In this document: piece by piece, positions 564 to 58,740 of the stretch
Position numbering within the stretch: the first letter of the stretch is position 1
How the letters are laid out: every line of letters starts with the position of its first letter
Notes under the pieces: generated by a model
Database searches by the model: none
What the model saw: only the letters and a program-made list of their open reading frames with translations
Told to the model about the DNA's origin: nothing
Translations under genes and position numbers: made by a program
Assembly (NCBI GenBank): GCA_038049695.1
Contig: CP142452.1
Location: forward strand, 50,364,501-50,428,500
Origin: Cinnamomum chago
Taxonomy: Eukaryota > Streptophyta > Magnoliopsida > Laurales > Lauraceae
Direction of reading: 5' to 3'
Length of the DNA: 64,000 nt

Positions 564-3500
564 TGTGAGAACCCGACCCCTAATCTCTTGGATTAGTGTT
601 GTTTTATTTGTGGATTAGTTCTTTTAGTGGGATTAGTAGTTGTTGGGTTGAGTTTGTGAGCTAGAATGAGTTTTCTTCTAGTTTTGGGCTTTTGAGTGCT
701 TTGGTAGCTTGTGGGGCCCTTTGGGGGTTCCCTTTTCGGCTTTGCATTTTCTTGTGAGATTTTCCCGATTGGTTTCGTATCGTGTTTTTGGCCCGTTGCA
801 TTCATCTTGAGGAATCCTACAACTTTCATGTTGATCTCGTATCCATTTGAGAACCCGAAAACCGATTTCTTGGCCTTGAGGGCAAAACAGTCTTTTCACA
901 CCAAATCTGTACCCAAAACTCGATATTCTCGAAATTCGTGAAACATATACTTTTTGGAAACTAGATATTTCGACGATCATTTCTTCCTTCTTCGTCGAAT
1001 CCATCCGAGGTCCCGAATTAGATGATTTCAGCCACCCAAGTTCTTTAAGTTGTGGGACCCCTTCTCACTTGCTATAAGAGAACCCACCTCCCTTCTTCCC
1101 CATCTTCATTTCCAGCACAAATCAGCAACTATTGAGCCTAGGGTTCCTTGTGCTCTCTTCTTCTTCTTGCTTTTTTCATCTCCAAGCCACACCAATAGTC
1201 CACCAAACTCGAAATGGAGACCGTCTTCTTCTTCCTCATCTTACAAGCTTTCCATTGGTACCATTTGTGAAGAGAACCCTCCATCACAAGACTTCCCTTG
1301 AGCTTGTTCTTCTCATTTGAAGGTCATCCAAGTAAGTGATTCTTCCCATCTTCTAGAATTGTGATCTACTAGCCTTAGAGAAGCTCCACCTTGATTATTG
1401 AAAGGTTTCATTGTCATTTCATTGTTTAACCCATTTTAGGGTTGTTTTGGGGGTTTTTGTAGAGATTGTGGATCTTGAGCTTGAGAGGTGATTAGGAGCT
1501 TGATTTGCTTGATTAGAGTCAAAGGCAAGTGGTTGATTGGATCGTTTTGATTATTAACATGTTTTGGTGAAAATCTTGATTTCATTGATGGTTTTGGTAA
1601 TTTTAATAGTTGTTTTTGATATGATAAATATTGATTATGAGATGTGCTTATTGATGAGTTATTCTTTCTTGTTAAGCTCTTGAAAGTGCATGCATCCTAT
1701 TGTCAAAATTTCAAATGGTTTCACATGAATGAGTTTTCTCCACTTTGAGTTTTATTGTGGATGGAATGGATGGATAGGATGGAAATGGAGGAACTTGGAA
1801 TGAGGAGCTCTTTAGCTCATTTTAATGTCTTGGAAACATGTGATTAAGTTCCCTTGTTTATAGTTTTATGTGATTGATTATATGTTGGAAGGAAAGGAAA
1901 GAAAAATGAAGAAAATCCAAGTCCCGGACCTGCACTGCGCCCAGGACCGATCGATCGGACGTGCAGACCGATCGATCGGTCTGTCAGTAACTGTAAGGGT
2001 TTTTGGATCGATCGGTGGACTCAGTTTGAGTCCGGTGGATTTTGAGAATTTTATTTTTTTTCCTTAGAGCTAGGTGGGACCTTGGCTACCCTTTTTGGAC
2101 TAATTGGACTATGGGTGAGATGTCTTGTGCCGACGCTTCTCACGGTTAATTTAGTGGCATCGAAGTTCAATCCGTTTCAATCTTGAATGGGATGGAATGA
2201 CGCGATAACTCCTTTATATCCAAATATAAGTCTTTTGCCTTGGTTATCGCGAATTCCATTCCTTTCGATGACTGAATAGGTTGGTCGATGTTTCCGAATT
2301 AACGTCATGCCTAGGATGGACCGTCTATAACCTTGATTTTTCCTAGTATGAAATCTAGTACTACCCACAAGCTCATTTTAAGTTGTGAAAATAGTAAAAG
2401 TGCATGAGGAGCCCGGAATGTCTTCAAACTCAAGGAGTACCAAGTAATTATCATAATCGACATACGGGACCCCTATTCACTTAAGTAGATCTTGCAATCA
2501 ATATTTTTCCCGAAATGGTATAGTGCATTATATTTCCTCATTTCCCGAGATTTGCATCACATGATATGAAATGAAAGTGTGCCCTTGAGCACCCCGTTTT
2601 ACCCGTTTATTTATTGTACTTGATTTACTTGTTTCCCCGAAAGCATTGGAGTTACTTTAGTAACAATTATTGTCCCGAAATGTATTGCCCGATATGATAT
2701 GACAGTGTGCCCTTGAGCACCCCCGTTTACCCGTTTATTTACGTGCCCTTGAGCACCCCCGTTTTACCCGTTTATTACTGTACTTGATTACTTGCATATG
2801 TCTCGATTGGTTTTAACCTATGAGTCGGCATCACTAAGCTTGGATACCTTGTCAGTCTGATCCACTGACTTGGAGATCCCTCTCCCGTCCCGCCAGCTGC
2901 AGTTTGGATCCCGATACCCGGTTATTGCCGTGGTCCCGTCCCGATACCCGGTTCGCTACCGTGGTCCCGTTCCCGTATATTTATTATTGTATATGATTTA
3001 CGTTGAGTCTCCTCACCTTGTGTGACTGAGACCAACGTCCCGCTCTTGTCACTTCGGTGATAGAGGACTTAGCTTCTTGTGATTGCCATCTTGCCAGTTC
3101 CCGATTCCTTGGACACCCGACATGGTTTATATTGCTTACTTGTTTTCAGTTAAATGATTCATTGCTTTTATGAAAGTTGTTATTTAGATAAGTGTTAATG
3201 CTCTCCATTGTAAATTCAGTCACTATTATATTGTTTTATGTCCTTTGTACACGCACATGTTTTACATGAATATCGGTTGGGTGAATACCCGTGCTTTTAC
3301 ATATGTTTCTAACGATCGATGGCTTTTGCTAGATTTATATGATTTCACATGTCTTAAACGAAAACCCGAATTGTTAAATAGCCGTGCTTTGTTTTAAATG
3401 ACATTTGACTTGTGAGATTCCCATGTTTATACACGTTTTAAACGATTACCCGATTTGTCAATATCCATGGTTTGAAATATATTTTTGATGACACATGTTT

Positions 3501-4530
3501 TGCCAGATTCCTATGTTTATACCTATTCTACATGATACCCGATTTGTTTAAATATCCATATCTTGGAATAGGTTTAAACGAACATTAGTCTTGTCAGATT
3601 TCTTGGGTTACACTTGTTTTAAATGAACACCCGGTTTGTTAAATATCCGTATTTTCACATATGTTTCAAAGGGACATTGGTTTTTGCTAGACTGCTATGA
3701 ATACCTGGTTTGTTGTATACTTGTGTTTGTACTTAAGTTTCAAATGAACGTTGTTTTGCCATACCGCTATATTTATACATGTTTTAGACGAATACCCGAT
3801 TGTCAAATATCTATGAATGTAGATGATGTAAATGAATACATGTTTTATTAGATGTTCATGTTTTACCCGTGCTTGAAATGAATACAAGTTTTCCCCGAGA
3901 TTCCCGACTTTGCACCCGTTTAATTATATGCAGTACTTGATCGATTAGCATGATTTATTATATGTTTTACTCTTTAGTATATTTGTGATCTTTTCATCCA
4001 CCTGCCAGACCGTCGTGTCTGACCCACTACTTTTGGTACTCAGGTTCAGATTTATTCGCCCCGAGTTGAGTGTTTTGTTGGCTTTGGAGCCATGCCTTGC
4101 AGGTTGTTTTGTCGGCTATGTCATGTAGACATTGAGTCTGACATCGGAGCTCCGTCACATTTGGGTAGTAGTTTATAGCTTATTGTTGTATGGCTTTTAT
4201 TAGCCTTTTTCTTGGGATTCTTAATTAATGTACATTGATAATTGTAACTTGAACATATTCGGGAATGTAATATCCTGTTACTGACAGCTCTGTAATTTAT
4301 TGTGATGTTTACTCCAGTCTGGTATGATTCTTGATATAATAGCTATGGGCTAAAGGTTGAGTGCGACGCGGAATCCGATGGCCACGGACTTCGGGTCGCA
4401 ACGCCACAAATGCTTCCGCAAAATATTCAGAATGTGTTGTCTTCACACACGCGGATCTTGGGAGAAGTAAAAATACATTTATCCTTAATCCCATCTCCCG
4501 CCCCCGAGGTTCTGGTTCGGGGGCGTGACA
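564..4530 (+). repeat. 5' LTR of the Ty3-type element (copy A)
   Basis: This is a 3967 bp LTR bounded by TG and CA. Much of it matches the solo LTR at 21276-25516 and, reversed, the one at 53806-56762. Landmarks are the repeated phrase around CCCGATACCCGGTT (~2900-2970) and a degenerate array of Y-rich segments with ATGTTTTA-like words between about 3220 and 3900. A cluster of CCGATCGATCGG palindromes lies at 1947-2015. Confidence 0.85.
1947..2015. repeat. Cluster of GATCGATC palindromes in LTR copy A
   Basis: Two perfect 12 bp palindromes, CCGATCGATCGG, sit at 1947-1958 and 1968-1979. A third site, GATCGATCGG, lies at 2006-2015. The centre is ATCGAT. The homologous position in sister LTRs holds different palindromes (see 23028, 18738 and 55464). 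No function is known to me; candidates are binding sites for a dimeric protein or self-pairing RNA loops. Confidence 0.85.
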
Positions 4531-8129: not shown

Positions 8130-9527
8130 CTCCCATAGACTCAATATGTGAAGAAAACACTTTCTCAGTAAGAGTCTTAGTAAATGGGTCAGCTAAGTTA
8201 TCTGCTGAGGCAATCTGCTCTACCAGCTAAGAATGTACTGCTTCCATGGTATAGCCCCTCCTGATTGAGTAAAGACGTATCCCGAGGTAGACTTTCTGCT
8301 ATCTACATCCGTCTGGAAATCAGAATCTGTATACGCCTGTGGCGTTAGATCATCTGCTTGGTAGGTTAGCATATAATCTTTCGTTCTCCGAAGATACTTG
8401 AATATATGCTTAACTGCTGTCCAGTGCATTGGTCCAGGGTTTGACTGATATCTACTAACCATGCCAACGGCAAAGCAGATATCTGGTCTAGTACACAACA
8501 TTGCATACATGAGGCTTCCAACAGCTGAAGCATATGGTACTCTCCTCATGCTTTCTATCTCCTCGGGTGTCTTCGGACATTGATTCCGAGATAGTGGTAC
8601 TCCATGTCCAGAAGGTAGCAAGCCCTTCTTGGAGTCATGCATGTTATACTTGACCAATATCTTCTCAATATACGAAGATTGTGATAAGGCTAACATCTTG
8701 TTCTTGCGATCTCGCATAAGCTTGATCCCTAAGACATAGCTTGCCTCACCTAAATCCTTCATCTGAAATTGAGATGATAACCAAACCTTTGTAGACGACA
8801 TCATGCCAACATCATTTCCAATGAGTAATATGTCATCCACATACAGGACTAAAAATGCAACTGCGTTTCCACTCCCTTTCTTATACACGCATGGTTCATC
8901 AATGTTTTGATCACAGCCAAAGGACTTGACTGCCTGATTAAACTTGATGTTCCATGCCCTAGATGCTTGCTTAAGTCCATAAATGGACTTCTTAAGCTTA
9001 CAGACCATGTTCTCTTGGCCACTAGCAATGAATCCCTCTGGTTGCATCATATAGATGCATTCGTCAAGACTTCCATTAAGGAAAGCTGTCTTGACATCCA
9101 TCTGCCATATCTCGTAGTCATAATGACATGCAATGGCTAAGAGAATCCTAATGGATTTAAGCATAGCCACTGGTGAAAAGGTTTCCTCATAATCGATACC
9201 CTCTTTCTGAGTATATCCTTTCGCCACCAGTCTTGCTTTGAGGGTTTCAACCTTCCCATCCACTCCTCTCTTTCTCTTGTAGATCCACTTGCACCCTATG
9301 GGTTTGATCCCTTCAGGTGCATCCACAAGTTCCCAGACTTGATTGGAATACAGAGAATCCAATTCAGATTTCATCGCTTGCTGCCACATGTCAGCATCTA
9401 TATCCGTTACTGCTTCATCGTAACTAGTAGGATCCTCAACCAAATCCTCGGAGTCTGTCATAAAAGACACTCCTAGGTATCTATCTGGTGGTCTAGAAAT
9501 TCTCCCACTACGACGAGGCTCCGGAAA
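8130..9527 (-). pseudogene. Ty1/copia reverse transcriptase / RNase H remnant (fossil)
   Basis: The minus strand encodes a copia RVT_2 reverse transcriptase. Visible blocks are [48 protein letters not shown] and the catalytic-type LYVDDILL. They are followed by the YASAVGSLMYAM...RPDI and SGYVF blocks leading into RNase H, and near 8160-8200 by words of the RNase H tail (ASADNLADPFTK). No gag or integrase is attached, and the 5' end runs into the Sirevirus LTR at about 9527. It is broken. It belongs to the same general copia group as the element at 37723-60328. Confidence 0.85.
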
Positions 9528-10140
9528 TGGTCTCAAAAGTTCATCAATCAAGGCTCTAGAAAGATGGGAAAAGAATGGACTTTAAACCAAAAAACAGTCC
9601 AACGGCTAGTCCCCGGTCGACCTGGAAACAGGGCCTGGTCGACCGGGTACGCACAACGGCTATATTTCTGACCGTTGGTGCTTCAGGAACCCTGTCGGCC
9701 TGCAGTGTGGCGTGTCGACCGGGTCCCCTGGGCCGGTCGACCGGCCACACTGCAGGTCGACCCCCTGGGACCAAAATTCCCATAATTGCATATTTTCAAA
9801 GTATTTCTTTGTGGGGATTTTTAGGCCACTAAACCAAGCTTGGAAACATATTTTAAATCAAACTAAGTGGTTTAAAAACATGAAACATAAAAAGACTAAA
9901 ATGATTCAAAACTTTTAAAACCAAAGGCTTGCTTGATTTCTAAAACTTTCTTTTCTAAAACAAATGCATCCAAGTTTTAAAAACAAATCATGCATAAATC
10001 AATACATTTACAAATCTTAAAAGCAATGCATGTATAAAACAAGATTTCAAGTTTTTATAAATCAATGCATAAGTGTGTAAATCAAATGATGCTAATATGA
10101 TAATGCATCCATCAAATTGCAATATACAAAATTCCTAACA
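9527..10140 (-). repeat. Partial 3' LTR of the Sirevirus-like element
   Basis: Matches 15291-15876 nearly base for base, from AATGGTCTCAAAAG to CAATATACAAAATTCCTAACA. On the minus strand it starts TGTTAGGAATTTTG. It carries GGTCGACC palindromes between 9613 and 9762. Confidence 0.85.
9613..9762. repeat. Cluster of GGTCGACC palindromes in Sirevirus-like LTR
   Basis: GGTCGACC occurs at 9615-9622, 9637-9644 and 9755-9762, and the 12 bp CCGGTCGACCGG at 9733-9744. A related GTCGACCGGG site lies near 9714. They are embedded in sequence that is otherwise not repetitive. Clustered LTR palindromes are a described property of Sireviruses. Confidence 0.85.
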
Positions 10141-14321: not shown

Positions 14322-15876
14322 TGAAAGTCCTGGGATCCTAACCCTAGAGAGGGGGGGGGGGGGTTGAATAGGGTGTGCTACAAAAATGACTAATTAAGAC
14401 AAAATTTAACTTCTTAAAAATAAACTAGTCATAAGTGATGATAAACAAACAATATGCGGAAGCTAAAACAATCACCACAACACATTCACCACCACACAAT
14501 GTTTTATAGTGGTTCGGCCTCAATGCCTACATCCACTACCGGCTTGTGATCTAATCACCCCACCGGATTTCCACTATTTATGCTTTTCAATAGGCTAAGC
14601 AATAAACCTTACAATGTTGTTTCTCTAGGCTCAACAACAACCTTTACAAGATGCTTTTCTAGGCAAAGTAATAACCTTTACACAATGCTTTTCTTAGGCT
14701 AAGCAATAACCTTTACAAATAAGGATTTCTCTAAGAAGGTGTCTTCACAAAAGAACACTCTAAGAGATACAATTTAAAGTTCAATTGAATTGCCTCTAAA
14801 TAGGCTTATATGAAAGTGAAATTCAAATTACAAACATACACTAGAATAAGCTAAAGTGTGTGCACAAGTGTATGAATGTTTTACTTCAATCAATTTCAAC
14901 AATGAAGCTCTTAAATGAACGTATCATGCATTTTAAAATCAAAGCTTAGAAAAATGTTGATTGAAGGTAAATGCTAATCACATGAAAGATTCACACAACT
15001 TAAGGAAATGAGCTAAAACAAGTTGTATGAATATTAAAGTCTAAGAACACATGTGATTTTGACATGAGTGATTGCAAACCATTCTAATATTCCAAAGATA
15101 ATAATGAGTTTGCAAAACAACTCTTTAAAAGCTAGAAATCATGCATAAATGAAAATACAAAGATTTAAACATGCATTGATTCTACTTTGAATGAAAATCA
15201 AAATAACTAGTAAGATGTACCTTTTAAAAACTCAAGCATTTGATTTCCAAAAAGCTCTCTAGCCTTTACAACTTCATCCCCTTTCTTTGGCTCCAAAATG
15301 GTCTCAAAAGTTCATCAATCAAGCCTCTAGAAAGATGGGAAAAGAATGGACTTTAAACCAAAAAACAGTCCAACGGCTAGTCCCCGGTCGACCTGGAAAC
15401 AGGGCCCGATCGACCGGGTACACACAACGGCTATATTTCTGACCGTTGGTGCTTCAGGAACCCTGTCGGCCTGCAGTGTGGCCGGTCGAAAGTTGAGACC
15501 CTGGGACCAAAATTCCCATAATTGCATATTTTCAAAGTATTTCTTTGTGGGGATTTTTGGGCCACTAAACCAAGCTTGGAAACATGTTTTAAATCAAACT
15601 AAGTGGTTTAAAAACAAGAAACATAAAAAGCCTAAAATGATTCAAAGCTTTTAAAACCAAAGGCTTGCTTGATTTCTAAAACTTTCTTTTCTAAAACAAA
15701 TGCATCCAAGTTTTAAAAAGAAATCATGCATAAATCAATACATTTACAAATCTTAAAAGCAATGCATGTATAAAACAAGATTTCAAGTTTTTATAAATCA
15801 ATGCATAAGTGTGTAAATCAAATGATGCTAATATGATAATGCATCCATCAAATTGCAATATACAAAATTCCTAACA
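14322..15876 (-). repeat. 5' LTR of the Sirevirus-like element (1555 bp)
   Basis: Bounded by TGAAAGTCC and CCTAACA. On the plus strand it begins with the G-run phrase GGATCCTAACCCTAGAG and then the CCACTACCGGCTTGTG block. It contains GGTCGACC-type sites at 15384-15490, including variants GATCGACC and GGTCGAAA. The same family occurs as solo copies at 29518-31719 and 42515-44388 and as a fragment at 1-269. Confidence 0.9.
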
Positions 15877-41223: not shown

Positions 41224-41244
41224 ACTTGGATTTGGAATTGATTG

Positions 41245-44388: not shown

Positions 44389-44393
44389 GGAAC

Positions 44394-44742: not shown

Positions 44743-45360
44743 CACTACAAGAAAAGTGACAATTAGTGGCAGTTTATAGTGGCGGTTTATGTATCCGTCA
44801 CTACATCTAAGTATTATTATACATTCAGCGGCTGAAATTGTATTTTGCTGCTATAACCGTATTCATACATACATATAGCAGCGGAAAATGTATTATGCCA
44901 CTATAAACGCTTACGTATAGCAGCGGAACGTATATTTCGTCGCTACATCTATATCTAAATACATACGTATAGCAGCGGAAAATGTATTATGCCACTATAA
45001 ACACTTACGTATAGCAGCGTACTGTATATTCCGTCGCCACATCTACATCTAAGTACATATGTATAACAACGGAAAATATATTATGCCACTGTAAACACAT
45101 ATACATTTATTAATGTATAGCAGTGGAAAGTATAGTCCGTCACTACATCTAAATATATAATACATATAGCAGTAGAAAATATATTATACCACTATAAATG
45201 TATAGGAAATACATATACATAGATACAAATAGTAGCAGAAAATATATTATGCCACTATACATAATATGTATTATACCATTATACATAATACATATAGCAG
45301 TAGAAAATATATTATGTCACTATACATAATACATATAGCAGAAATTATATTATACACATA
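44743..45360 (+). repeat. Left CACTA terminus and subterminal repeats
   Basis: After the CACTACAAGAAAA terminus, variants of ATAGCAGCGGAAAATGTATTATGCCACTATAA recur about every 60-130 bp, grading into ATACATATAGCAG-type repeats. This is the usual layout of CACTA transposase-binding ends. Confidence 0.85.
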
Positions 45361-45379
45361 TAACCCACATCCAGTGCCA

Positions 45380-45985
45380 AAACCCACGCCTCATCGTCGT
45401 CCAGTCCCAAAGCCTCTTTTCTTCTTCCCCAAAACCCTAATCTCTGAGATCTCTCTTCCCCAGAACCCTAATCTACACATTGGTTGATTTGTTTGGAGCT
45501 TCCAGCAGCTTTGAGGTTTTAGACCTGATCGACATCGGAGAAGAAGGAAGCAAAAGCTAGAGCAGCGAGCAGGTAAGACCTACTTCGATGCATTTTCCGA
45601 TCTTCGATCTTCCATCATCTCTGAGATCTCTCTTCCCCAAAACCCTAATCTTTGTTTGGAGCTTCCAGCAACTTTGAGGTATCAGCTTCTCGATCTCGAT
45701 CTGTTCCAATGCTCGTCGTTGATGAAACCTCCTCGGGAAAATCTCAGATTCTCGCGGTATTTTCTTCGATCCAGATCTCTTTTCGCTGCAGAAGCCGAGA
45801 TTCCAATGTTGTTGTTGAGAAAATCTGGTTCAGGTGTCGAATTTGATTTCTCGAAAAGACTCATTTGATTTCTTGATTTGCGTTTTAGCTTGATTTGGAT
45901 TCATGGTCCCTGTTTTCTGAAAGAAATCAGGTGCGAAAGCTACTGTTTTGTTAAATGACAGCTTCCTTCTATGGTGATATTGCAG
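45380..45985 (+). other. Captured 5'-leader-like DNA with telo-box words and a partial duplication
   Basis: The phrase CTCTGAGATCTCTCTTCCCC, AAACCCTAATC and TTGTTTGGAGCTTCCAGCA occurs twice (about 45441-45517 and 45619-45682). AAACCCTAA words are typical of promoters and leaders of translation-related plant genes. A donor-like GCAGGTAAGA lies at about 45571. No first MYB exon is visible, so this is either that gene's leader or DNA from another gene. Confidence 0.5.
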
Positions 45986-46972
45986 GTCTTCAAAGGTGTG
46001 GAAAGAGCTGCAGGCTAAGGTGGATAAACTACTTAAGGCCTGACTTGAAAAGGAGTACATTTTCACCGCAAGAAGAGAACCTGATAATCGAACTCCGTGC
46101 GTTCTTAGGCAACAGGTAATCTTTGTTTCCCTATCTCATGACCAGAAAAAAAAATTACAAGTTATTTTCTGAAGATTAAGTCTGCATTGTTCCTTGAATG
46201 TATCCCTCAGCGAATGGAATGAGAAGCTAATGCTTTTGCAAAAGCAGCAGTGACTAGATCAAGTGCCGTGATTGGAATTTGGAAACACAGTACAGTTGTA
46301 ACATGTTCTCTACTTGTTTGAGGTTGCGGTCTTATCTTGATTGACTCTTCCTATTTTTGATGTTTTTTTTTATCAATGAACCTTCTATTTGCTTCTAAGA
46401 AAAAGAAAATTCTTTTTCTCATGATCTGAAAGCAGTCGACAAGATTTTGTTGTATTAGAATTTCTACAAATTTCTGAGGTCTTTTCCTTTGTTTTAACTT
46501 CCTCAGGTGGTCTCAGATTGCTACACAACTTCCTGGAAGAACTGATAATGAAATCAAGAACCTGTGGAATTCATGCATTAAAAAGAAGCTGAGGCAGAGA
46601 AGCATTGACCCAAACAAACATAAACAGTTATCGAAGGTCAAGAATAGAGAGGATAAGCCACCTATCAAAACTGAGAAAGCATCAGGATCTAGGGAACTGA
46701 AACTCCTAGCCTCAACTTCCACTACAGAGGATTCCAAGCTGGGGGTCCCAGAGCAGAAGCCTTCACTGATGGCAGTTGACCCAAATCCATTTGATTGTTT
46801 CACCTCCAAGATCAACACTAGTGTGGGTAATTCAACTACGCCCACCAAGGAATTCCTCCTGGAGAGGTTCTTAACAAGCCATGAAAGCTCAACCAGCAAC
46901 AGGCCTTCAGATTCCAACATGGGGTCAAGAGCTTTGTGGAAAATGGTCTCCCTCCCAGGTTTCTCATCATAG
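45986..46972 (+). pseudogene. Captured R2R3-MYB fragment, exons 2 and 3 (subgroup 13-like, MYB50/55/61/86)
   Basis: Exon 2 (45986-46115) follows TATTGCAG and ends at CAACAG before GTAATC. Its 130 nt is the classic length of R2R3-MYB exon 2. It encodes the end of R2 ([16 protein letters not shown]) and the start of R3 ([19 protein letters not shown]). Exon 3 (46507-46972) follows CCTCAG and encodes [20 protein letters not shown], then [16 protein letters not shown] and a long open C-terminal region with [15 protein letters not shown], stopping at TAG. The SIDPNKHK and KEFLLERF words point to the MYB50/55/61/86 group of nuclear regulators of wall and lignin genes. The first exon (start codon and R2 helix 1) is absent, so no full protein can be made from this copy. 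Splice sites look usable. Confidence 0.85.
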
Positions 46973-47423
46973 ATGATGGATGGCAGAGCATCAACCATGA
47001 CCAGGAGAATCCATTTGAAGACTCCAAGGATCTAACAGGTTGGTTACTTTCAAATGAGTACTACATTGCGTAGTAGAATTTACAATGGCTTTATTACCAA
47101 ACTACATCTCATACAATGACTTTATTACTGAACTGCTTCTCAATTTATACAAGAAAAAGAATATGATAGAGAATTACTCAGTTTGATGATAACTTTTAAA
47201 TGACTGCATTGCATATCATTCAGTTACTCTGATTCATGATAACATCCCATTGACTATGTTGCATAGAATTCACCATGACTCTTTCCAGAAAACACATCTA
47301 AATTTATACAAGAACAAGAATATGAGTATATGGCAAGGAATCACTCATCTTACATCTTCATTCAACAACCAAAAGCTTATCCTCTCTGACCTCTCTAAAA
47401 TTCTTCACATATTCAAAATAGGT

Positions 47424-47606
47424 CTGGGGTCGCAGATGCTCTGCAGGCTCCATCGATTTGAAGAGAATGACAAGTTTGCCAAGTACAGGAAAGGGATGAT
47501 GCTGGGTCCAGATGCACTAGGGTTCGACCAGGAGGCTCATTACAAGATGTTTAAAGAGAGGGTGGCTTTCAAATATGAAAATGCTTCAAGTGAATTAACT
47601 TTGTAG
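47424..47606 (+). other. Exon-like open stretch inside the CACTA element, unrecognised
   Basis: After AAAATAG, an open frame contains the words LHRFEENDKFAKYRKGMM and GPDALGFDQEAHYKMF and ends at a TAG. The amino-acid make-up looks coding, but I do not recognise a family. It lies between the MYB and hydrolase fragments and could be a fourth captured piece or an intron ORF. Confidence 0.35.
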
Positions 47607-48112
47607 TCTTGTTTGCAGGCTTGAGCAAATATGGGCATCATCTGGGGACGTAATTTACTAGCATCCATCTTTGAGAAAACCGAGTAGACACTTGAAAAAT
47701 GCAGGCTTGATTGTTTTGGTATACTGTTATAGTTATTTTCTTTTTTCCCCCCTTGTGTTGTGTTCGACATTTTCCCACATGCAATGTGGTGATCTTGTTC
47801 TTTTTTCTATAGGGACTTGAAATCGTTGTGAGTTGGCTTGGAAGTTAGTTTCCATGCTTTTTAATGTTTGAATGATTATATTGAGTATGTCATTCTGGGG
47901 TTTGAGTTGGGCTTGGCCCAACTTGTATTGCTACGGGGAAGCTTAGGACTGTCTCCAGTCTTCTATAAGCTTTCAACTTATTGATGATAGGGTGAGTCCT
48001 TGTTATTATAGAATTTCTGGCTCAGTCCAAAACTGGCTTGTTGTTGGTGTATTGGGAGTTATGATATGAGTGGAGAGGTGAGGTTGGTTTTGGATTTGTG
48101 TGTTTTGGGTAG

Positions 48113-48923
48113 GTGATGTGTACAGAGTATATTCATGAGAAAAAGGAGTTGATCCAGGAAATACTCAGAGACACGAAACACCTACAGCTTCCCAAGATTA
48201 CTCAGGTATTTGCTTCTCTTATTAGGCCTTTTAGTGTTTTAAAACTGAGACTGATCTGAGGGTAATACAACTTTCTGATTCTGCTGCTGACATTTTAGTA
48301 GCTAAAGACACTAAAAAAGGAATGAAGAAGTGGGAAAACTAATCAAATGTATAGCAACAATTGAAGTAGCTGTCTTTTTTATGACTGTTTTGTCACAACT
48401 CTAGCCTACCAACATTTAAAACTTCCATCCATCCAGTTTTCATAAACCTAAAACAAACACTCAGAACCCAATTTATATTTGTTGTTTATATAGTGATAAT
48501 GTTCCTATTGCCTACTGTCAGTTGTCACGACCATTTTTATATTGGTAATTATGGTTGTTTTTTTGAAGATTGAGGTTAAAATGATTGGGCTTTTAAATTA
48601 TATTTTTTTCTTATTGCAACCGACCTTAATAATATGGGGAGAGCAAGACCAGATATTCCCCTTGGAACTAGGGCACAGATAAAAAAGGTTTGGTGTTTAA
48701 TGTTTGAGCTGAAATGCGTTTGTTTTAAATGTTTTTGATTTGTTTGCTCTCCTTAATTTTGTATCTAAGTTGGGACCTTTGTAGGCATCTGGAAGAGAAT
48801 TCACAACTCGTGGTCATCAAGCACGCAGGTCATGCTGTCAATCTTGAAAAACCTAGGGAGTTTGGGAAGCAACTGAAGGCCTTCCTCATTGATTCTCCAC
48901 CCATTAGCGACATAGTACACTGA
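48113..48923 (+). pseudogene. Captured alpha/beta-hydrolase fragment, last three exons
   Basis: Exon a (48113-48205) encodes MCTEYIHEKKELIQEILRD then LQLPKITQ. Exon b (48620-48687) encodes TLIIWGEQDQIFPLELGHR, containing the Asp region of the catalytic triad. Exon c (48785-48923) encodes HLEENSQLVVIKHAGHAVNL then EKPREFGKQLKAFL, with the catalytic His in AGHA. The pattern matches plant cytosolic esterase/lipase-like hydrolases of the monoacylglycerol-lipase type. Decay is visible: exon b ends in an in-frame TAA where the family has a Leu codon, and its acceptor reads GCAA instead of GCAG. Upstream exons carrying the nucleophile Ser were not found. The substrate cannot be told. Confidence 0.8.
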
Positions 48924-49612
48924 TCTGATCTCTCTTTCTGTAACTTCATTTGTTAAAGTGCATCCCTTTCTCCCGAAACAAAATTCCCTTCCGTGCACAT
49001 TTTGATGAGCAAAGTTTGGCAAATCAAGAATGTTCTGGGCATTGATGAGGCAAACTTGTAACAACCGAAGACAAGATATACTCCCCAGTTCGCATCACCA
49101 CTAAAAGGAGGATGTGCAGAGTTGTTGAATTGTAGGCATGTGTGGAAAAGATCAAGGAGCTTGTTGATCAAAGACACCGGCTGATCTCCACCTGAGTCCT
49201 TGTAGATAATTCAGATCAGTATACCAATTGATTGAGTTGTAATTTCCTCCATTGCTTTGAAGAACAGAGTTTTATCACTTGTTCTGAAAGACAATTGAGT
49301 AATAGAATAACTAACCATAGAAACAAATAGAAGCAAGTGTTGAACACACTACAATATAGTGAATGCCTTTGTGATTAGTGGATGTAAGGTTTTGCATAAA
49401 ATTTATACAAAAAGGATGAGAAGATATCAATGTATGATGTCTGATTAGTCAATTCATACACATTGGATGGTAATGTGTATGAATTAATACATATGTATTT
49501 ATGACGACCTCATAACACTGTTGGAAGGTGCTTGTTGTTGCAGTCACAAGGTTGTTAGAGTTACGCTAACCATATTCATTGCCTGAAAGCTCTTTGTATT
49601 TTACACACACAG

Positions 49613-52407
49613 GATCTACATATGGTTTACCTAAGATGCAAGACAAGGTTGTTGGTGAACCAATCGGCATTCCATCCTTACTTGTTATGCAGATAGGCAC
49701 AGGGGTTCAAATTAGACCAGCTACCAGTGAGTCATCCAGAGAACAGTCAAATGATGATGATATGGAAGGAGAAACAGAAATAACTGAGAATATGGATCCT
49801 GCAGATGTAAAACGTTCAAGGAGGTAATCATATACTCTAGTGTTTTTAACGCAGCTGAAAAGTGTTTTAATTTTAAATTTGAGAAATTAATTGCATAAAT
49901 AGTTTTGGCATCAAGTTTTTATTGATTTTCCTCTATTTTAGGAGGTTGAAGCATGCACCTGAGAAAAACTCAAATTTTAAATGCAGGGAATTAATGCATA
50001 AATATTTTTGCATCATGTGTTTGTGAAGGAAAGCTTTTTAGCCATGGCTTGCATCTATGTGCCATCTAAAACTCATGGCTGTTTGGATACATGGAATCTT
50101 GGTGCCGATTGAATTCTAGAGTTGCCACCTTTTCTTTTGACAGGAGGATTCCTCTAGAAGATGCAATTAACCAAAAGTAGTATTTTACGCATCCAGACAA
50201 GCCCGAAGGTGGGCTCAACCATTCTTTTGATGGACTATAGGATATCTTTTTACCAAACGACTGTTTTCGTTTTTCGTTTTTCATTTTTTTTTTTTTTTTT
50301 GCTTTGTATTGTTGTTCACTTCCATTCTAGCACAGCTCCTACTTCCCTTGTAAAAAGTGATTTCTATATAGCCAAACATGGCATAACCGAGTGACATTCA
50401 CTACTCTTGATGTCATATTGCTGGTTTTGATATCCTGTTGACTGTTAATCCAGTTTTAGTGGCTCCTCCTTCTTGCTGTTCTTCTTCTTCTTCTTAACAC
50501 AATTACTTGAGAGGGAGGGGAAGGGGGGCTGAAGTGAAGGTCTTCTAGTGATGCTTCCTTAACTTGGAAATTTATTGCATCATTTGTGGAAGAAATAAAC
50601 CTCTCTCTCCACTATTTGTCATGTCTCTATGAAATTCTTAGAAATTTATTACATTATTTCTGGAAAGAGAGCTTTTCTTTTCTTTTTTATTTTTTCTTTT
50701 CCCTCACTATTTTCATGTTTTACGAAACTGCTTCCTTAACTTGGAAATTTATTGCATCATTTGTGGAAAAAGAACTTCACTCTTTCTTTTTCCTCACTAT
50801 TTGTCATGACTTTATGAAACAGAATGCCAACATTGGCCAGAAATGCCAAAGATTCCATCTCAGTAAGAGCGACAAAACTCCCAAAATGCAATTGACAATA
50901 ATAATTTGCATTGTATCCATATTTTGTATCATATAGTTGGACCAAAATATTTAGAAGAAAATTATGTCCAATGGGTGCTTTACCCACTGTATGTGCACCA
51001 TTGATGTATGTTTGTACATTTCACCCTTGAAAATCATCATTTTTGTTCTGATATCCATTTGTGTCTTTCAAATGATCCATTTGGTGTTCTTAGGATGCTC
51101 TCAAATAGAGAGTCTGCTAGGCGTTCCAGAAGAAGGAAGCAAGCACATTTGAGTGAGCTTGAGCAACAGGCATGGCCCCTTAACTCTGCTTTCTACTCGA
51201 GCTTGTCGTATTTATTCATTGACATAAAGTTTTGATGAATTCCAGTGACATTATCTTAATAGGTTGCACAATTGAGATTTGAAAAGTCTTCATCAGTAAA
51301 GCGTCTTACGGACGTTAGTCAAAAGTATAATGAAGCTTCTGTGGACAATAGAATTCTGAAAGCAAATGTTGAAACACTTAGAGCCAAGGTGAGCCATTGT
51401 TATTTTATGAGAAAAGATAAAATCATTGTTAAATCTACTTGAGTACTTTTAGTTTATTCGATCACGCCTACAGGAAGCGTTACTCCACAAGCTTCATATA
51501 AAAGATCTTTACTTTGTCCTGGGACTTTCTATTCATTAATGAGAGAGCTGGGTCCAATTTGTCATGAGATCAGCGAGTGTTGACCAATGTTTAGAAACCA
51601 GACTGAACTGATGGCTGATCCAGTTGAATCTGTACCACCACATGTTACATTTTGGTTTAACCAAAAGCTCATGCTCTTAATTGAACCATGTAGTTCAACC
51701 ATTGAACCATTCAAACCGTTTGGTATTTTAGGAATGGGTTTACAAGTGAACTTGGAAAAACAAAACATGAAACAATATTTAAAAGCTTATCATGTTATTA
51801 TTATTTTTTTAATTTTAAAAGTGTTATATTGAAAATGTCTTTTTTAACTTGAACTATTATTTTAAGAGAATTTTCTAAGAGCATTACTGTTAAAACCTTG
51901 ATGCAAGTGCTGTTGTTGCTAGACTTGTGCTATTGTAACTCCCAAGTGAATATGCCTTTCTGTGGAGACCTTTCTCCTAGCATTTTACGCTTACATTGCT
52001 AATTTCAGGTGAAGATGGCTGAGGATACAGTTAAGAGAGTGACAGGGGTGAATACCCTGTTTCAAACCATGTCTGACATATCCATCAGCATACCATTCTC
52101 CAGCAGCCCATCTGATGCAACTGATGCTGCTGTACCTATACAAGAAAATCCGAGTCACTTCTTTCAGCCGACTCATGACCATAGAATAAACACTGGTCCT
52201 GAGATCATTCCTGGTCCTGTTGAAGACATGCACAACCCTGGAGGCAAGATGTGCCGAACTACTTCCATGCAGCGAGTGGCTAGCTTGGAACATCTGCAAA
52301 AGCGGATTTGTGGGGAGCAAATCCTTGTGGGCCTGTCATGCACTGAGTTGCTTTCCCTTCTCCAGTATTGCCTTTATGTTTGGCGGACCCCCCAGCGCCA
52401 GAGATGA
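49613..52407 (+). pseudogene. Captured group C bZIP fragment (CPRF2/bZIP10/25-like)
   Basis: Four exons: 49613-49823 (GVQIRPATSESSREQSNDDD, then DPADVKRSR), 51094-51169 (basic region [19 protein letters not shown]), 51263-51388 (leucine zipper, VAQLRFEK...[25 protein letters not shown]) and 52009-52407 (VKMAEDTVKRVTG... RVASLEHLQKRI). The family binds ACGT-core promoter elements as dimers in the nucleus. The second intron has a GC donor (CAG|GCATGG) in place of GT. Near 52313 one G fewer than in the family shifts the frame: the expected ending ANPCGPVMH lies one frame away, and this copy continues about 27 residues. N-terminal exons are missing. The basic region and zipper remain open. Confidence 0.85.
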
Positions 52408-53219
52408 TCTCTGCCCCATTGCTGTTCTAATGGCCAATGCCAAGAATAACATGTAGTAGCAGAAGTTGAAGGAGAGACGGCTCATGGTCGACTTCTTTTC
52501 AGCTCAGCGAGAGAGAGAGAAGTGATGTGTGTGTGTTTTTTTTTCTTTGGGGGTGTTTTTGTTTTGTGTGCTTGAAATGAGTTGCTTTGGAGAGGGTTAT
52601 ATGGGAGAGGAGTAAGGTAGAAAGATGCAATATCATATCAGATTAGGGGGTTCCAAGGAGACATTTTACATTTTTCGGGGATAATCTTTTTTTTTTAATT
52701 TTAATTCCTACATTGGAGACTCAAAATTTTTTTAATTCCTAACTTGGAGAAATTCTTTTTTTTTCCTTAGAGTATTGTTTTTTAATTTTAATTCCTAACC
52801 AATGCAAGAATATTTTATGAATAAGTGGTATGGACAATTTAGAGGGCATCAAAGAACATATCTAGGCTTATACATCAAAGAATGAAGCCCAATGTGAACT
52901 AGGCTCCAGCTTTAAAGTTTTGTTGACAAGGTTTGATCATAGGGATGCAAATGGGTCGACCCAAATCTATAAGCCCGGACTTGTCTTCATAGATACAATT
53001 TCTAGATTCGGAGCCAGATTCGGTACAAAACCTATGTAAAAAAAGATTACTAATTCTATCTTACTGAATCTTTAGTATGCTATTCAATTCTTCTTCATAA
53101 GCTTACAAATACAATTGTAAAAGAAAAATTAAAGCAAAGCTGAGTTTGATATAAAAAAAATCAGTACAGGAATTATAATCAATAAAATGGGAGATAAATG
53201 CGTGATGTTTTCAGCAGCA

Positions 53220-53451
53220 GTTTGTGAAGTTTGTTGCTATAAAGCAAGCTAATTAGTGGCGGTTTACAAGCGCCACTATTGATAGTCTCTTTTGCAGCAG
53301 CTCCAATTCTACTACAAATACAATCAGTGATGGGATTTTCTACGACAAAAGTGGCGGCGGACATTTTTCCGCCGCAAAAGGTATTAGCGGTGGTTATTAT
53401 ACATATAGCGGCGGTTTTTATCCGTCACTAAATGTGATTTTTCTTGTAGTG
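53220..53451 (-). repeat. Right CACTA terminus and subterminal repeats
   Basis: Contains TTAGTGGCGGTTTACAAGCG, TTAGCGGTGG and ATAGCGGCGGTTTTTATCC, then CGTCACTAAATGTG and the terminus TTTTTCTTGTAGTG. It mirrors the left end. Confidence 0.85.
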
Positions 53452-53454
53452 TCA

Positions 53455-53800
53455 TAATCCCTTCAGTCACCACCAGCTGGCTAGAAAGTTCAGCTAGAGT
53501 CAAATTCATCTTATTCATATTATAACTGACCTTGAAACTGTTGAATGACTCTGGTAGTGACTCAAGATTATGTCAATTTGCGATTCTGCATCAATCGTAA
53601 CCCCCAGTACATCTAACTCATTCAATGAGTCCATCATTTTCAACATGTGGTCCTGTATTGGTGTGCCTTTAGCCATCTTGGTGCTTATAAGCACCCTCAT
53701 AGTAGCCTGTCTACTAGGCCTGCCCTGTTCCGCAAACATCTCCTTTAAGTTTCATATAATATCATATGCAGTCTTATAGGATTGATGTTGGTGTTGCAAA
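53455..53800 (-). pseudogene. Copia gag, middle segment (fossil)
   Basis: The minus strand reads MFAEQGRPSRQATMRVLIST, then KMAKGTPIQDHMLKMMDSLN and ESQIDIIL, followed toward the CACTA border by YNMNKMNLTLAELSSQL. These are the conserved words of the copia Gag (UBN2) domain. It is bounded by the CACTA transposon and by the solo Ty3-type LTR at 53806. Confidence 0.85.
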
Positions 53801-53805
53801 ACACT

Positions 53806-56762
53806 TGTCGCGACCCCGGACCGGGAATCCGGGATCAGGACTAAAGGTGGTTAATGATTAATGAGGATTATCTACATCAACAATATACAACTTATTTAAT
53901 TTCCCATAGGTGTCCGGGGTGAGGATATCACAACCTTGCATGAATATTTCTTTTGAGTGCGGAAGCGTGTAGCAAATCAAATAGTAGACTATCTCTAATC
54001 ATGCAAGCATTAACATTCAATATCAAAACTGTATCAGAATGAGCAATGATCTATAGCATGTTTCCCAAAAGTTGTTAAAGTTAGACAAAATATCATTTAG
54101 TTACATTCCCCAAAATTAGAGGCCAACAAAGGCCAATATAAACAAAACAATAACCCAAAAGAATGGTTAAATAGTTCTCCACAAAATGTTACGCCTCTTG
54201 TAGCAACCCGATGTCTACATGACATCGTCAGCACCCCACTCAACTAGAGGTTGCGGCTCACCTACCGCCTCATCTGGCTCCTCCTCAAGGAAACCGGCAA
54301 CGGGACCTGAGTACCAAAGTAAAGGATCAGACACGACGGTCTAGCAAGAGAGTGAAAAGATACAACAACCCATAATAGATGAAATATCTCGAAAAGCAAG
54401 GAAATCTGTTTAAGCAAGAACTCTCACAAAATAGATAAATCATTTGCTAGAAAACATGTAAACAAGATAAAACATATGAGGTAACCAAGGGATCGGGAAC
54501 TCACGAGATGACAATCACATAAAGCTAAGTCCTCTGTCACTAGAGTGACAACAGTATCATGGGACGTTGATCTCAGTCACACAAGGTGAGGAGAATCAAC
54601 GTAAATCATATATACAATATAAATATACGGGACGGGACCACGGTAGCGAACCGGGTATCGGGATGGGACCACGGTAATGACCGGGTATCGGGATCCAAAC
54701 TGCAGCTGGCGGGACGGGAGAGGGATTTCCAAGTCGGTGGATCAAACCGACAAGGTATCCAAGCTTAGTGATGCCGACTCATAGGTTAAATAACACATCG
54801 AGGCATATGCAAGTAAATCAAGTACAAGTAAATCAATGAACGGGCAAGAATATTCAAATGCATAACTTTCATTTCATATCGGGCAATACTCTTCGGGACA
54901 AGTCAATGTTACTAGTGTAACCATCAAGCTTTCGGGAAAACAGATCATGTAAAGTAAATCTTGGAAATGAAGAAATAAAATGAACTATTACAATTCCGGG
55001 AAAATATTGATTTCAAGATCTATTTAAGTGAATAGGGGTCCCGTATGTCGATTATTGAAATGATTTGGTACTCCTTGAGTTTGAAGACATTCCGGGCTCC
55101 TTATGCACTTTTACGATTTTTAAAACTTAATATGAGCTTATGGTTAGAACTAGGTATTACCATAGAAGATCAAGACTATAAACGGTCCGTCCTAAGTATG
55201 ATGTCAACCCGGAACCATCGAGCAACCTACTCAGTCACCGAAAGGAATAGAATTCGCGATACCCAAGGAAATAGACTTTGCATTTAGGTATGAAGAAGAT
55301 ATCGTGTCGTTCCATCCCATTTAAGATTGAAATAGATTGAACTTCGATGCATCCGAACCAACCGTGAAGAGCATTGGCTCAAGACGCCCTCACATATGGT
55401 CAAGTGAGTCCAAGGAGGGTAGCCAAGGTCCACAAAAAAAATAATAGCAAAACCCACTTTCCTCCGATCGATCGGCCGAAATTTCTGTCCCAGTTATGGA
55501 CAAGGTCCGATCGATCGGCCTGCACGTCCGATCGATCGGACCTGGGCGTGTAGCAGGTTCGGGAACTTGATTTTTTTCGTTTTTGTTTCCTTTCCTTCCA
55601 ACACATCAACAACCACATAGAGCTATAAACACATGTTTCCAAGACATTAAATGAGGCTATCAAGATGCATAAAGATCATTTATTTCAACCATAAAAAGGA
55701 AATCAATGAAAGCATGAAAATCCATAAATGCTTCACCAAACCATTTGAAACTTAAAACCACTTCATCATTCACTTGCCTCAAGTCCAAGCTAGCCAAAAT
55801 CAAGCCTCTACTCACTTCTTAAGCTCACTTCCAAGCTACAATCAAAAACCCCCAAAACAAACCCTAAAATGGGTCAAAAAATGAAATGACAAGGAAACCT
55901 TTCAATAATAAAGGTGGAGCTTCTCTAAGGCTATAGGAACACAAATCTAGAAGATGAAGAAGAACACTTACTTGGATGACCTTCAAATGAAGAGAGCTAT
56001 CTCAAAGGGAGTCTCAAAGTTGATGGATTCTTCTACAAAAGGTATCAAAGTGAAGCTTGCTAGATGAGGAAGAGGTTGGTGATCTCCATTTCGAGTTTGG
56101 TGCAAGATTGGTGAGGATTGGAGAAGGAGAAGCAAGAAGAAGTGAGGATTGGAGAAGGAGAAGCAAGAAGAAGAAAGAGTTGCTCACCAAAACCCTAGAC
56201 TCTCCTCTTGTGCTGGAAAATGAAAATGGAAAAAGAAGGGGAAGGGTCTCCTTTGTTAACAATGAGAGGTTGGGTCCCACAACTTAAGGAACTAGTTTAG
56301 CTGAAATCATCTATTTCGGTATCTCGGACGAAGTCGACGAAGAAGGAAGAAATGATCGTCGAAATATCTAGTTTCCAAAAAGTATATGTTTCGCCGGTTT
56401 CTGGAATATCAAGTTTTGGATACAGATTTTGTGTGCAATGACTGTTTTACCCTCAAGGCTATGAAATCAGGTTTCGGGATCTCAAACAGGGACGGGATCA
56501 ACATGAAAGTTGTAGGGATCATCAAAACGAGTAAAACGGGATTAAAATCATGAATGTAAAAACCTCCGATAAATCTTCAAACATATGCAATGTCATGAAA
56601 GGGAACCCCCAAAGGGCCCTACTAACACAAAGCAAATCAAAATCCCCAAAACTATATCAAAAGCTATTCCAAACCCAACTTATCCAAAAACACTAATCAA
56701 GCTTAGCACTAACACGCAACTTAATTAGCACTAATCGGGTTCACTCGGGTCGGGGTCTTACA
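53806..56762 (-). mobile_element. Solo Ty3-type LTR (copy C, 2957 bp) inside copia gag
   Basis: The plus strand starts TGTCGCGACCCCGG and ends GGGTCGGGGTCTTACA, with TSD ACACT at 53801-53805 and 56763-56767. Reversed, it is collinear with parts of copies A and B (CCCGATACCCGGTT block near 54630-54690, CGAAATATCTAGTTTCC near 56360). It carries three CCGATCGATCGG palindromes. No internal domain. Confidence 0.92.
55464..55539. repeat. Cluster of CCGATCGATCGG palindromes in LTR copy C
   Basis: Three perfect 12 bp palindromes at 55464-55475, 55507-55518 and 55528-55539. Their flanking text (GAGTCC...GGTAGCCAAGGTCCAC) matches copy A, so the site is homologous to 1947-2015. Confidence 0.9.
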
Positions 56763-56767
56763 ACACT

Positions 56768-57020
56768 AGACATGGATGCCTGTATGTAACATCTGGCCAT
56801 CTCATCGTCTTTGGCCCACTTGGTGTAAAGTTCCTTTTCTCCCTCTGATGCTTCCGACACTGGCTCATCAAGGGGGGGGGGGGGGTTTGGTAAGGACATA
56901 TTTATATCCTGAAGCTGTCAGGACTATATCCAGGTTCCATTTCCAGTCTACATAATTGGATCCCACCAACTTATTCTGGTTGAGGATGGTTGCAAGTGGA
57001 TTGAAAGTATTTGAATTCAT
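56768..57020 (-). pseudogene. Copia gag, N-terminal segment (fossil)
   Basis: The minus strand begins at an ATG (57018-57020) with MNSNTFNPLATILNQNKLVG and then YVDWKWNLDIVLTASGYKYV, the standard N-terminus of copia Gag (DUF4219/UBN2 type). It continues to the border of the solo LTR at 56762. Confidence 0.85.
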
Positions 57021-58740
57021 GCTTGAAATACTATAGCACATAACCGTACATTCAATTTAATGAATTTAAATGACATTAGGGTTTAGTATTCTACCAAATT
57101 TATATGGAATCCTCATAACTACTAAATTCAAAATACATCGGAATTCCAATCCCCGGGGTATGCCTCCTTGGGGAGTGCGAATACCACCTAGATTGGTGCG
57201 GATCAAAGTTGGTCAAAATTAGGATTAAGACTAACGTTCCATGATCCCCTTCATTCATTATTATCTAGGTATCTCATACCAAATAATGAATGACTCCCGA
57301 TTAGCTTCGGTTTCTAAAATAAATGAGGCAAATCCTTGGGGATTCTACATCATTATTTTAGTTAAGTGTGACCCACCAACTAGCATTGCATGACAACTGT
57401 TGCGAGCAGCTCCTCCTTGGGGAGTGGGCCCCGCCCCGTCTCACCAACACTATCCATAGGAGATCCATATGTAGTAACCAGACAAGTAAAAGCCCTCCGT
57501 GGGGAACGGCCATTCTCAAGATGGCGCGAGGCTAATACTTTCCTTACAATGGACTTATGGTGGGAAACCATGGGGATTTCCAAATATAAATGCCCTGCTC
57601 CCACTTAATATTTTAGAATTGAGGATTTCCTTGTAAGGTATTAGGGCCCACATACATATAAATGAACATCAAATCATCTCATGATATGATCAAAGATTGG
57701 TTCCAAGTCAAGTTATTTTAAGGAAAGTCCAGTTTCTAAATTAGTGTTACCAATGTGTCCATCTCATGGGTCATCAACACTAATTAGAACTCTTTCCAAA
57801 AATTAATTTGATTTGACCAATTTTAGTAACTTTCTATATTTGGATTAGATTTGGAAACATTCTAAATTAAGCATTCATCCATGAATAGAAAGTGCTAAAA
57901 TTAGAAACTAGTCCTCTCCTCCACATGGCCCTAGCGGAATAGACTTTCCAAAACACTCTTTGGGCAACTCCAAAACTCTTTTGGTAATCTTCAAGCTCGT
58001 TGATTATGAGTTCAACATCGCTTTCCTTCTTCGTCTCGGACATCACCAGAATTTACAAATTTAGAAAAATTACAAAAATTCCTATGCTTGGATTATGAGA
58101 CTTACATGGTAATCTAAACATGGGAAAAAAGGGCTATATGGAAATTCATCATGCCTTGCCCTTTCACGGGAAAGCAAGGAAACCATGATGCCCTTTACAC
58201 TTAGCCTCAAATAAACCAATAACCATAAATAGAAAGCAAAAGACTTATGGGCCATATGGAGAGGACATGATCATCTGCAAGTTAGTATCTCATACAACCA
58301 TACAAATCACAAAAACATGCTGCCAAATAATGCTGGAAAAATAGGATGTAAAAGAAGACCCGAAACTGAAGAACCTAGTTTTTGCAACATGCTGTGTAGT
58401 GTGCTCGGTCGACCGCCCAGAAGGCTCGGTCAACCGACCTGCAAGTCACCCGGTCGACCGATCACGGGGCCAGGTCGACCGGACTGACGAAAACCTGCAA
58501 CTTGGGTTTTCTATTTCGTGTCCATTCTTCACCAAATCACTTCCAAAGTGTTCCAATGGCTTCCTACCATCCTTCCATCATTATTAAACCCTTTTATGAC
58601 TATCCAAACATGAATCTACTATCTTACCAAGTAAATTCATCAAAACTGATCCTAACATAGTCCTCGCTTCATCTTCTTCGCATCTCATACAAAGATTAGA
58701 GCAAGCTTACTGATCTAACATGATTAGAGATGAGGTATGG
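57021..58740 (-). other. Long leader of the copia element
   Basis: About 1.7 kb between the primer binding site and the gag start, with no supported ORF. Two related phrases (GGTATGCCTCCTTGGGGAGTG near 57160 and GCAGCTCCTCCTTGGGGAGTG near 57405) repeat. A cluster of TCGGTCGACCG-type palindromes lies at 58405-58482, inside what would be the element's RNA leader. Confidence 0.6.
58405..58482. repeat. GGTCGACC palindrome cluster in the copia leader
   Basis: Sites TCGGTCGACCGC, TCGGTCAACCGA, CCGGTCGACCGA and AGGTCGACCGG lie within 80 bp. They resemble the Sirevirus LTR clusters but belong to a different copia family and lie in its leader rather than in an LTR. Confidence 0.88.

Follow-up and report, generated by a model that had tools for sequence, protein, structure and literature searches.

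Palindromes in a retroelement-rich stretch

The stretch analysed here, a window of 64,000 nucleotides from Cinnamomum chago (C2:50364501-50428500 of the 1.06-Gb genome), holds long terminal repeat (LTR) retrotransposons in which perfect palindromes with a TCGA core are clustered into arrays of 2-9 sites. The carriers are of three kinds: Sirevirus elements (SireA, SireB and SireC), Ty3-type LTRs (Ty3-1, Ty3-2, Ty3-3 and the LTR around 18738), and the leader of a different copia element, copia X, inside which Ty3-3 and SireC are nested (Table 1). An initial annotation of the window had proposed this division, and domain matches, primer binding sites (PBS) and LTR comparisons bear it out. It had also given the palindromes as 8-12 bp long; perfect TCGA palindromes are indeed present, but their size reaches 20 bp. 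They lie at 1947 (12 bp), 1964 (20 bp), 9615, 9637, 9731 (16), 9755, 15386, 18738 (12), 18758 (18), 23027-23288 (seven), 31234, 31329 (14), 55464, 55507, 55526 (16), 58406, 58451 and 58473. Two of the clusters then listed are less regular than described, that at 15384 consisting of one perfect site and a degenerate partner, and 31212 itself having only GTCGAC with decayed arms; the list of Sirevirus arrays lacked SireC (42515-44388), whose six sites are one-base variants.

Table 1. Array carriers and palindrome arrays in the window; SireB, SireC and the Ty3-type LTRs are assigned by similarity.
Feature	Position	Strand	Details
Ty3-1, Ty3-type long LTR	564..4530	+	TGTGAGAACCC...GACA ends; PBS TGGTATCAGAGC at 4534; relatives in window and L007
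Ty3-1 CGATCGATCG array	1947..2013		centres 1952.5, 1973.5, 2009.5; spacings 21, 36
SireA 3′ LTR, truncated	9517..10140	-	multiple GGGGGAGA polypurine tracts and inverted repeat at the polypurine tract/LTR junction, 10100-10780
SireA 3′ LTR GGTCGACC array	9613..9764		two pairs, spacings 22, 98, 20; AACGG/CCGTT boxes between and beside
SireA 5′ LTR	14322..15876	-	PBS at 14319; CCHC gag 13110-14231
SireA 5′ LTR array	15384..15416		one perfect GGTCGACC, degenerate partner CGATCGACCG, spacing 22
CGGTCGACCG pair in Ty3-type LTR	18738..18775		spacing 23; homologous stretch 17943-19863
Ty3-2, Ty3-type solo LTR	21276..25516	+	5-bp target duplication CAAGT; 87% to Ty3-1 over 2627-4530
Ty3-2 CGCTCGAGCG / CGTTCGAACG array	23027..23297		nine sites, some degenerate; spacings 22, 51, 21, 41, 40, 20, 43, 22
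SireB, solo LTR assigned to Sirevirus	29518..31719	-	target duplication GAGGA
SireB CGGTCGACCG array	31212..31342		spacings 75, 22; upstream of TATAAATATG box
copia X	37723..60328	-	LTRs 37723-39486 and 58754-60328; target duplication GTTTG; PBS 58751; gag start 57020
SireC, solo LTR assigned to Sirevirus	42515..44388	-	target duplication GTTCC
SireC array	43735..43888		six GGTTGACC sites (+ strand), one base off palindrome; spacings 23, 55, 23, 21, 22
Ty3-3, Ty3-type LTR	54400..56762	-	77% to Ty3-1 over 1816-2568; left end not delimited
Ty3-3 CGATCGATCG array	55464..55541		spacings 43, 21
copia X leader array	58406..58480		four GGTCGACC-type sites (one GGTCAACC), spacings 21, 24, 21

The excess of palindromes is genuine and large relative to chance. 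Among the 148 TCGA sites of the window, 29 are centres of perfect palindromes of at least 8 bp, 20 of at least 10 bp and 13 of at least 12 bp, where shuffles that preserve dinucleotides within 500-bp blocks yield 9.0, 2.2 and 0.5; the finding thus survives the control that the initial annotation had set for it. Twenty random 10-kb stretches from contigs C1-C4 (200 kb, the first 20 of 120 drawn) contain 66, 40 and 23 such palindromes, with 32.4, 8.3 and 2.1 in shuffles. In that random set, only the AT-rich cores TATA (26, 4.2 expected) and ATAT (23, 5.8 expected) match TCGA at 12 bp or more; GCGC and GGCC cores are mildly raised, with dense or long cases in the loci L013 and L012 (L numbers denote loci studied alongside the window). 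The pattern CGNTCGANCG occurs 19 times in the window against 0.11 in shuffles, 18 of these palindromic; the random 200 kb have 39 occurrences against 0.62, of which 31 are palindromic. Genome-wide it is found at 116,278 places, 94 of the first 100 listed being palindromic; the reversed pattern, a lenient control as it has no CpG, gives 7,173. An array, defined by any two of six words lying no more than 250 bp apart, is present in 7 of the 20 random stretches.

A different word in a different place is found in L013, where dense GCGC-centred palindromes (25 listed, all but one with GGGCGCCC) extend over 1707-5175, within and behind the retroelement's gag-bearing open reading frame (ORF).

Neighbouring sites are paired at two helical turns

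The initial annotation described the spacing as irregular, which the measurements contradict: 18 of the 27 neighbouring centres in the window (the near-word at 23177.5 excluded) are 20-24 bp apart. Genome-wide, 42,324 pairs have a gap of 0-30 bp (8 for the lenient reversed-pattern control), and in 32,449 of these the gap is 10-13 bp (control 1). The de-duplicated counts also draw on 60 extra 400-bp stretches around listed pairs and three 10-kb stretches. Of these, 56 of the 60 stretches and L027 came from the gap 0-30 lists, and the other four (GGTTAACC) with L025 and L026 from the gap 10-13 lists; L001-L004 were fetched with a 12-bp-spacing pattern, and L064 is contained in L025. As the loci were picked for holding a listed pair, information comes only from how the spacings are distributed within 10-40 bp. 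Among 69 representative arrays at 85% identity, 87 of 197 neighbour spacings fall at 20-24 bp, 10 at 10-19 and 13 at 25-34. With 21 representatives at 70% identity the numbers are 25 of 66, 1 and 9, and with 15 representatives at 60% they are 17 of 48, 0 and 7. A pair at 20-24 bp is held by 16 of the 21 representatives. Because the peak is kept at all three levels, pairing at 20-24 bp, or about two turns of B-DNA, stands. In SireC, pairs 21-23 bp apart have been kept though the word has lost its symmetry.

On a larger scale, palindrome pairs recur at exact intervals of 2,200 bp (C1:3784445, 3786645, 3788845) and of 6,039 bp (C1:36924991-36943108), which suggests tandem arrays of whole LTR units. 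The window itself has a 193-bp unit in tandem, 3.5 copies, at 27452-28135.

A small set of words, shared across lineages and variable among relatives

The arrays mostly use a single word, drawn from GGTCGACC, GCTCGAGC, GATCGATC, GGTTAACC and GCTATAGC, with CGGTCGACCG the commonest among the places listed. Homotypic pairs account for most of the 42,324 pairs (GG 15,538, CC 11,348, AA 7,231), the remaining 8,207 comprising other words, mixed pairs and non-palindromic variants; in the 21 representatives, 59 of 62 neighbours within 110 bp have the same word. The SireC variant GGTTGACC is likewise found at all six of its sites. When the centre is left free, CGGTNNACCG gives 19,551 pairs with a gap of 10-13 bp (control 3) and CGCTNNAGCG gives 10,467 (control 102). 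Among the matches listed, centres of the former are CG in most cases, followed by TA (in entire arrays, e.g. C1:682140), TG/CA and a single CT, and those of the latter CG, TG/CA and AT, with few AA and CT. The idea that the centre must be a pyrimidine-purine step (T or methyl-C) was dropped on finding CGCTATAGCG pairs.

Words are not confined to one lineage. Each of the 60 stretches was assigned by its best blastn match (70 bp or longer) to a reference LTR or leader, 22 remaining without assignment. The GGTCGACC stretches comprise 12 of Sirevirus, 2 of Ty3a (the Ty3 families of the window) and 2 of the L025 family (4 unassigned); those with GCTCGAGC comprise 6 of Ty3a, 1 of Ty3b and 5 of copia L023 (8 unassigned); those with GATCGATC comprise 5 of Ty3a and 2 of Ty3c (9 unassigned); and those with GGTTAACC comprise 2 of L025, one being that very locus, and 1 of Sirevirus (1 unassigned). 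With the window's copia X included, GGTCGACC is common to Sirevirus, copia X and Ty3, and GCTCGAGC to Ty3 and copia L023.

Conversely, related elements have different words in the same position. Ty3-1 and Ty3-3 use GATCGATC whereas the LTR at 18738 and L002 use GGTCGACC; the 3′ flank of the array aligns and the words differ. L026 has GCTATAGC where L012 has two palindromes centred on GGCC (22 and 18 bp), their centres 27 bp apart, in both LTRs (1835-1882, 9825-9872), and the outer flanks are 85-89% identical. L025 (GGTTAACC) and L003 (GGTCGACC-type sites) are loci 79% identical. A fourth switch, between GGTCGACC in the copia X leader and degenerate CTCGAG-type sites in L015, depends on a weak alignment.

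Elements that carry the arrays

SireA is a Sirevirus, as seen from several GGGGGAGA polypurine tracts upstream of the 3′ LTR (10140-10780, minus), an inverted repeat CATCAAATTGCAA ... TTGCAATTTGATGG around the junction of the polypurine tract (PPT) and the 3′ LTR near 10140 (minus), and its CCHC gag, which matches PF00098 at 21.5 bits (cut-off 20.8). SireB and SireC are solo LTRs, assigned to Sirevirus through LTR similarity to SireA. Part of a Sirevirus LTR had once been read as gag, which the PBS positions corrected.

In copia X, an RVT_2 match lies in 40690-41244, reading frames continue to 39502 beside the 3′ LTR, and a PPT directly precedes that LTR. The cluster at 58406 was also considered as a Sirevirus 3′ linker; this was dropped, as the PBS at 58751, the GTTTG duplication and the reverse transcriptase (RT) frames beside the 3′ LTR identify another copia element. 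Copia L023/L009, with 0.9-kb LTRs and an RT that shares 36-45% identity with the two window RTs, is a further carrier.

The Ty3 LTRs of the window are assigned to Ty3 by similarity. Ty3-1, Ty3-2, Ty3-3 and the 18738 LTR, grouped as Ty3a, are related to one another and to an LTR piece in L007, where this piece is followed by a Sirevirus-like stretch and then by a PBS and Ty3 gag. The LTR holding 18738 is 82% identical to L002 (329-2285), and its 3′ flank is common to Ty3-1 and Ty3-3. The second family, Ty3b (L007 6195-9015, L006 576-3293), adjoins an SH3_Tf2-1 integrase end; a chromodomain match in L007 scores 22 bits, under the cut-off of 25.1. Ty3c (L012/L026) is another carrier, and L012 has profile matches to RVT_1, RVP_2, gag and SH3_Tf2-1. 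In addition, Transposase_32 ORFs occur in L026 (1974-2990) and L027 (5080-6234), with arrays (L026 3538-3736; L027 4667-4689, 6723-6785) about 400-750 bp upstream; the arrays associated with them possibly mark a further carrier lineage.

Arrays on the promoter side

Seven Sirevirus-type arrays have a common layout, which reads in sense order as palindrome pairs (the first pair decayed in one of the seven), AACGG/CCGTT boxes, a further pair or site, CCGTTGG, and TATAAA or TTTAAA. With distances estimated by eye, these arrays end about 30-35 bp before TATAAA in four (SireB, SireC, L006, L019) and before TTTAAA in three (SireA twice, L007). The word in this place is CGGTCGACCG in SireA, SireB, L006, L019 and L007, and a one-base variant of it in SireC. 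The array of copia L023 is found about 100 bp before CTATAAATAG, and the Ty3 array of L006 straddles its TATAAA, which directly precedes the last palindrome; its relative in L007 is the same.

In Sirevirus LTRs the AACGG/CCGTT boxes, mostly arranged as an inverted repeat, come after the palindrome pairs and before the TATA-like box (window 9560-9700, 15400-15480, 31170-31290 and 43690-43830; L006 6900-7035; L019 2990-3090; L007 3080-3160). We see in them a possible likeness to the mitosis-specific MSA element, to which MYB3R proteins bind.

What the paired sites may do

Symmetric sites set two turns apart on the promoter side point to cooperative dimer binding, and we consider it on balance probable that the arrays are paired sites for dimeric DNA-binding proteins controlling the element's promoter. 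A sequence-specific nuclear protein would occupy each site as a homodimer, and two such dimers, lying on one side of the helix, would cooperate, so that the promoter is switched on or kept free of silencing. Because the same word is used by copia and Ty3 elements, the factor would be encoded by the host rather than by the element. Different words may be read by paralogous factors or by variants of one; when a word changes, a new site would spread through the array, or the array would be swapped with that of another element, with selection keeping the geometry of the pair. Assignment to a transcription factor family was not possible; the sites may resemble W-box, GT-box and MYB sites. The interpretation given in the initial annotation is partly supported. 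Of its two ideas, the stronger is that of a shared dimer-binding factor, favoured by the two-turn pairing, the promoter position in several families and the words shared by copia and Ty3. A bolder proposal, which we offer tentatively and hold to be possible rather than probable, is that unrelated superfamilies of this plant share a cis-regulatory code of two-turn dyad pairs, spelt in a small number of interchangeable words that would each have their own reader within a family of dimeric host proteins, and that elements escape silencing or compete for activators by switching the word of a whole array while its geometry is kept.

Several observations weigh against protein-read pairs. The window's Ty3 arrays have no TATA box identified nearby, and the copia X array sits in the leader, after the PBS and before gag. 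Phasing over more than two helical turns was considered and rejected. In the raw list the best period at 41-70 bp is 10.55 bp (0 of 2,000 simulations), likewise with 36 values de-duplicated by eye, and the phasing is present at 85% identity; it is gone at the 70% and 60% levels, and also when the count is of the distinct spacings in each family. Spacings of 54-60 bp make up 1,707 of 21,628 pairs, below a flat spread. In a test of nine window arrays, R at 10.5 reaches 0.67, above both nulls, but the best-scoring period there is 18.55. The remaining adverse points are the folding, symmetry, flank-resemblance and shared-stretch results that follow, which belong to the first two alternatives.

The first alternative is that the palindromes act as hairpins of RNA (or single-strand DNA) in the transcript of the LTR, where they could, for instance, give rise to small RNAs or be targeted by them. 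This was proposed for maize Sireviruses, whose LTR palindromes are small-RNA hot spots (Bousios 2016, as cited in the accessible text of PMC10760457 and PMC5311732). When folded, five of five arrays are more stable than dinucleotide shuffles (z -3.1 to -8.3). In addition, the arms of GGTCGACC (61 sites) match each other above the expectation from half-site base preferences, with 39 against 28.5, 37 against 28.1 and 34 against 18.9 at positions ±6, ±7 and ±8; this extra symmetry may reflect sub-words (GAGACC, CCGGC arms) or pairing. In contrast, symmetry beyond the 10-bp core is about as expected from half-sites for GCTCGAGC (86 sites) and GATCGATC (55), whose arms are without a clear pairing excess. 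Hairpins do not require a two-turn spacing, and the centre of a loop need not be symmetric, yet among the matches listed the free-centre pairs are mostly CG, then TA, TG/CA or AT, with few CT and AA. As the explanation of the arrays we regard hairpins as unlikely.

Neutral spread, in which units of about 22 bp are duplicated locally and moved between families by template switching or recombination with no binding factor, seems to us slightly more doubtful still. Such units do occur, as TRF reports 22-bp tandems at 23021-23062 and 43812-43889, and the mostly homotypic arrays would fit them. Spacers also resemble their flanks more than expected (means 0.45 and 0.44, against 0.33 at random places), and in 4 of 24 pairs the resemblance exceeds the null's 99% level, which is what tandem duplicates of recent origin would show; the other 20 are under that level, yet the 20-24 bp pair is held by most representatives. 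As for recombination between families, raised in the initial annotation as a way to explain the clusters, Sirevirus L006 and the Ty3 LTR at 18738 share 40 bp at 90% identity across the array, so exchange between superfamilies is possible. However, CpG is better kept inside the palindromes (130 of 152) than elsewhere (406 of 556; nine pairwise alignments counted in both directions, not all independent), and a placement just upstream of TATA-like boxes is not predicted by neutral spread.

The leader between PBS and gag is the usual place of RNA dimerisation and packaging signals. Only copia X has its sites there; a kissing-loop role, the other idea of the initial annotation, fits poorly and is very improbable, since in the Sirevirus, copia L023/L009 and L006 Ty3 arrays the sites come before a TATA-like box or span it and most of them would be missing from the 5′ end of genomic RNA, and the SireC words are not self-complementary at the centre.

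Relation to known motif arrays

The type of motif is known. As the initial annotation noted, palindromes have been described in Sirevirus LTRs: CGGTCGACCG is listed for a Vitis element among the repeated motif (RM) boxes, which lie upstream of TATA (accessible text of PMC2829016). Like the arrays here, RM boxes are palindromic, repeated and CpG-rich, and carry a CGG-CCG signature. The same text calls the RM Sirevirus-specific, absent from classic copia elements and present in at least eight copies per element. Here, the same word also occurs in Ty3-type LTRs (at 18738 and in L002) and in the leader of copia X, the carriers include Ty3 elements and two other copia families, X among them, and other words are used; the Sirevirus arrays of the window hold 2-6 sites, counted per array and not per whole element. 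Pair spacing is not mentioned for RM boxes in the accessible part of that paper.

Other systems share single features with these arrays. The palindrome clusters of maize Sirevirus LTRs are also in the cis-regulatory part; according to the accessible text of PMC10760457 and PMC5311732 they consist of other words (CACCGGACNNNGTCCGGTG, free centre), and small-RNA data exist for maize. LTRs of Del elements (Ty3) have 5′ CpG islands that are CpG-rich and fast-changing and were proposed as a moving target for silencing (PMC4029996); as far as the accessible main text goes, none are reported in eudicot elements and the string 'palindrom' does not appear. The likeness, a CpG-rich, fast-changing LTR block in a Ty3 lineage, is one of description and not of lineage assignment. 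In Arabidopsis VANDAL elements, the VANC motif is short and repeated in non-coding parts, its repeat units diverge together, related elements differ, and it also occurs in the unrelated element AT9TSD1 (accessible text of PMC5735166 and PMC10398659). Here too, motif arrays change together and are shared with unrelated elements; in contrast, the VANC motifs quoted there are non-palindromic tandem repeats, read by an element-encoded protein (none was sought here).

Three features were not found in the literature searched, which does not establish absence from print: carriage by Ty3 and further copia elements, pairing at two turns, and switching of words; to that extent these are new. With them, the concept of the Sirevirus RM box reaches beyond Sirevirus to Ty3 and further copia elements. 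The site is short and extremely abundant, and the several words at one position amount to a natural experiment in how specific the factors would be. Should proteins read the geometry of the pair, this would offer a handle on the host factors that drive plant LTR retrotransposons or shield them from silencing.

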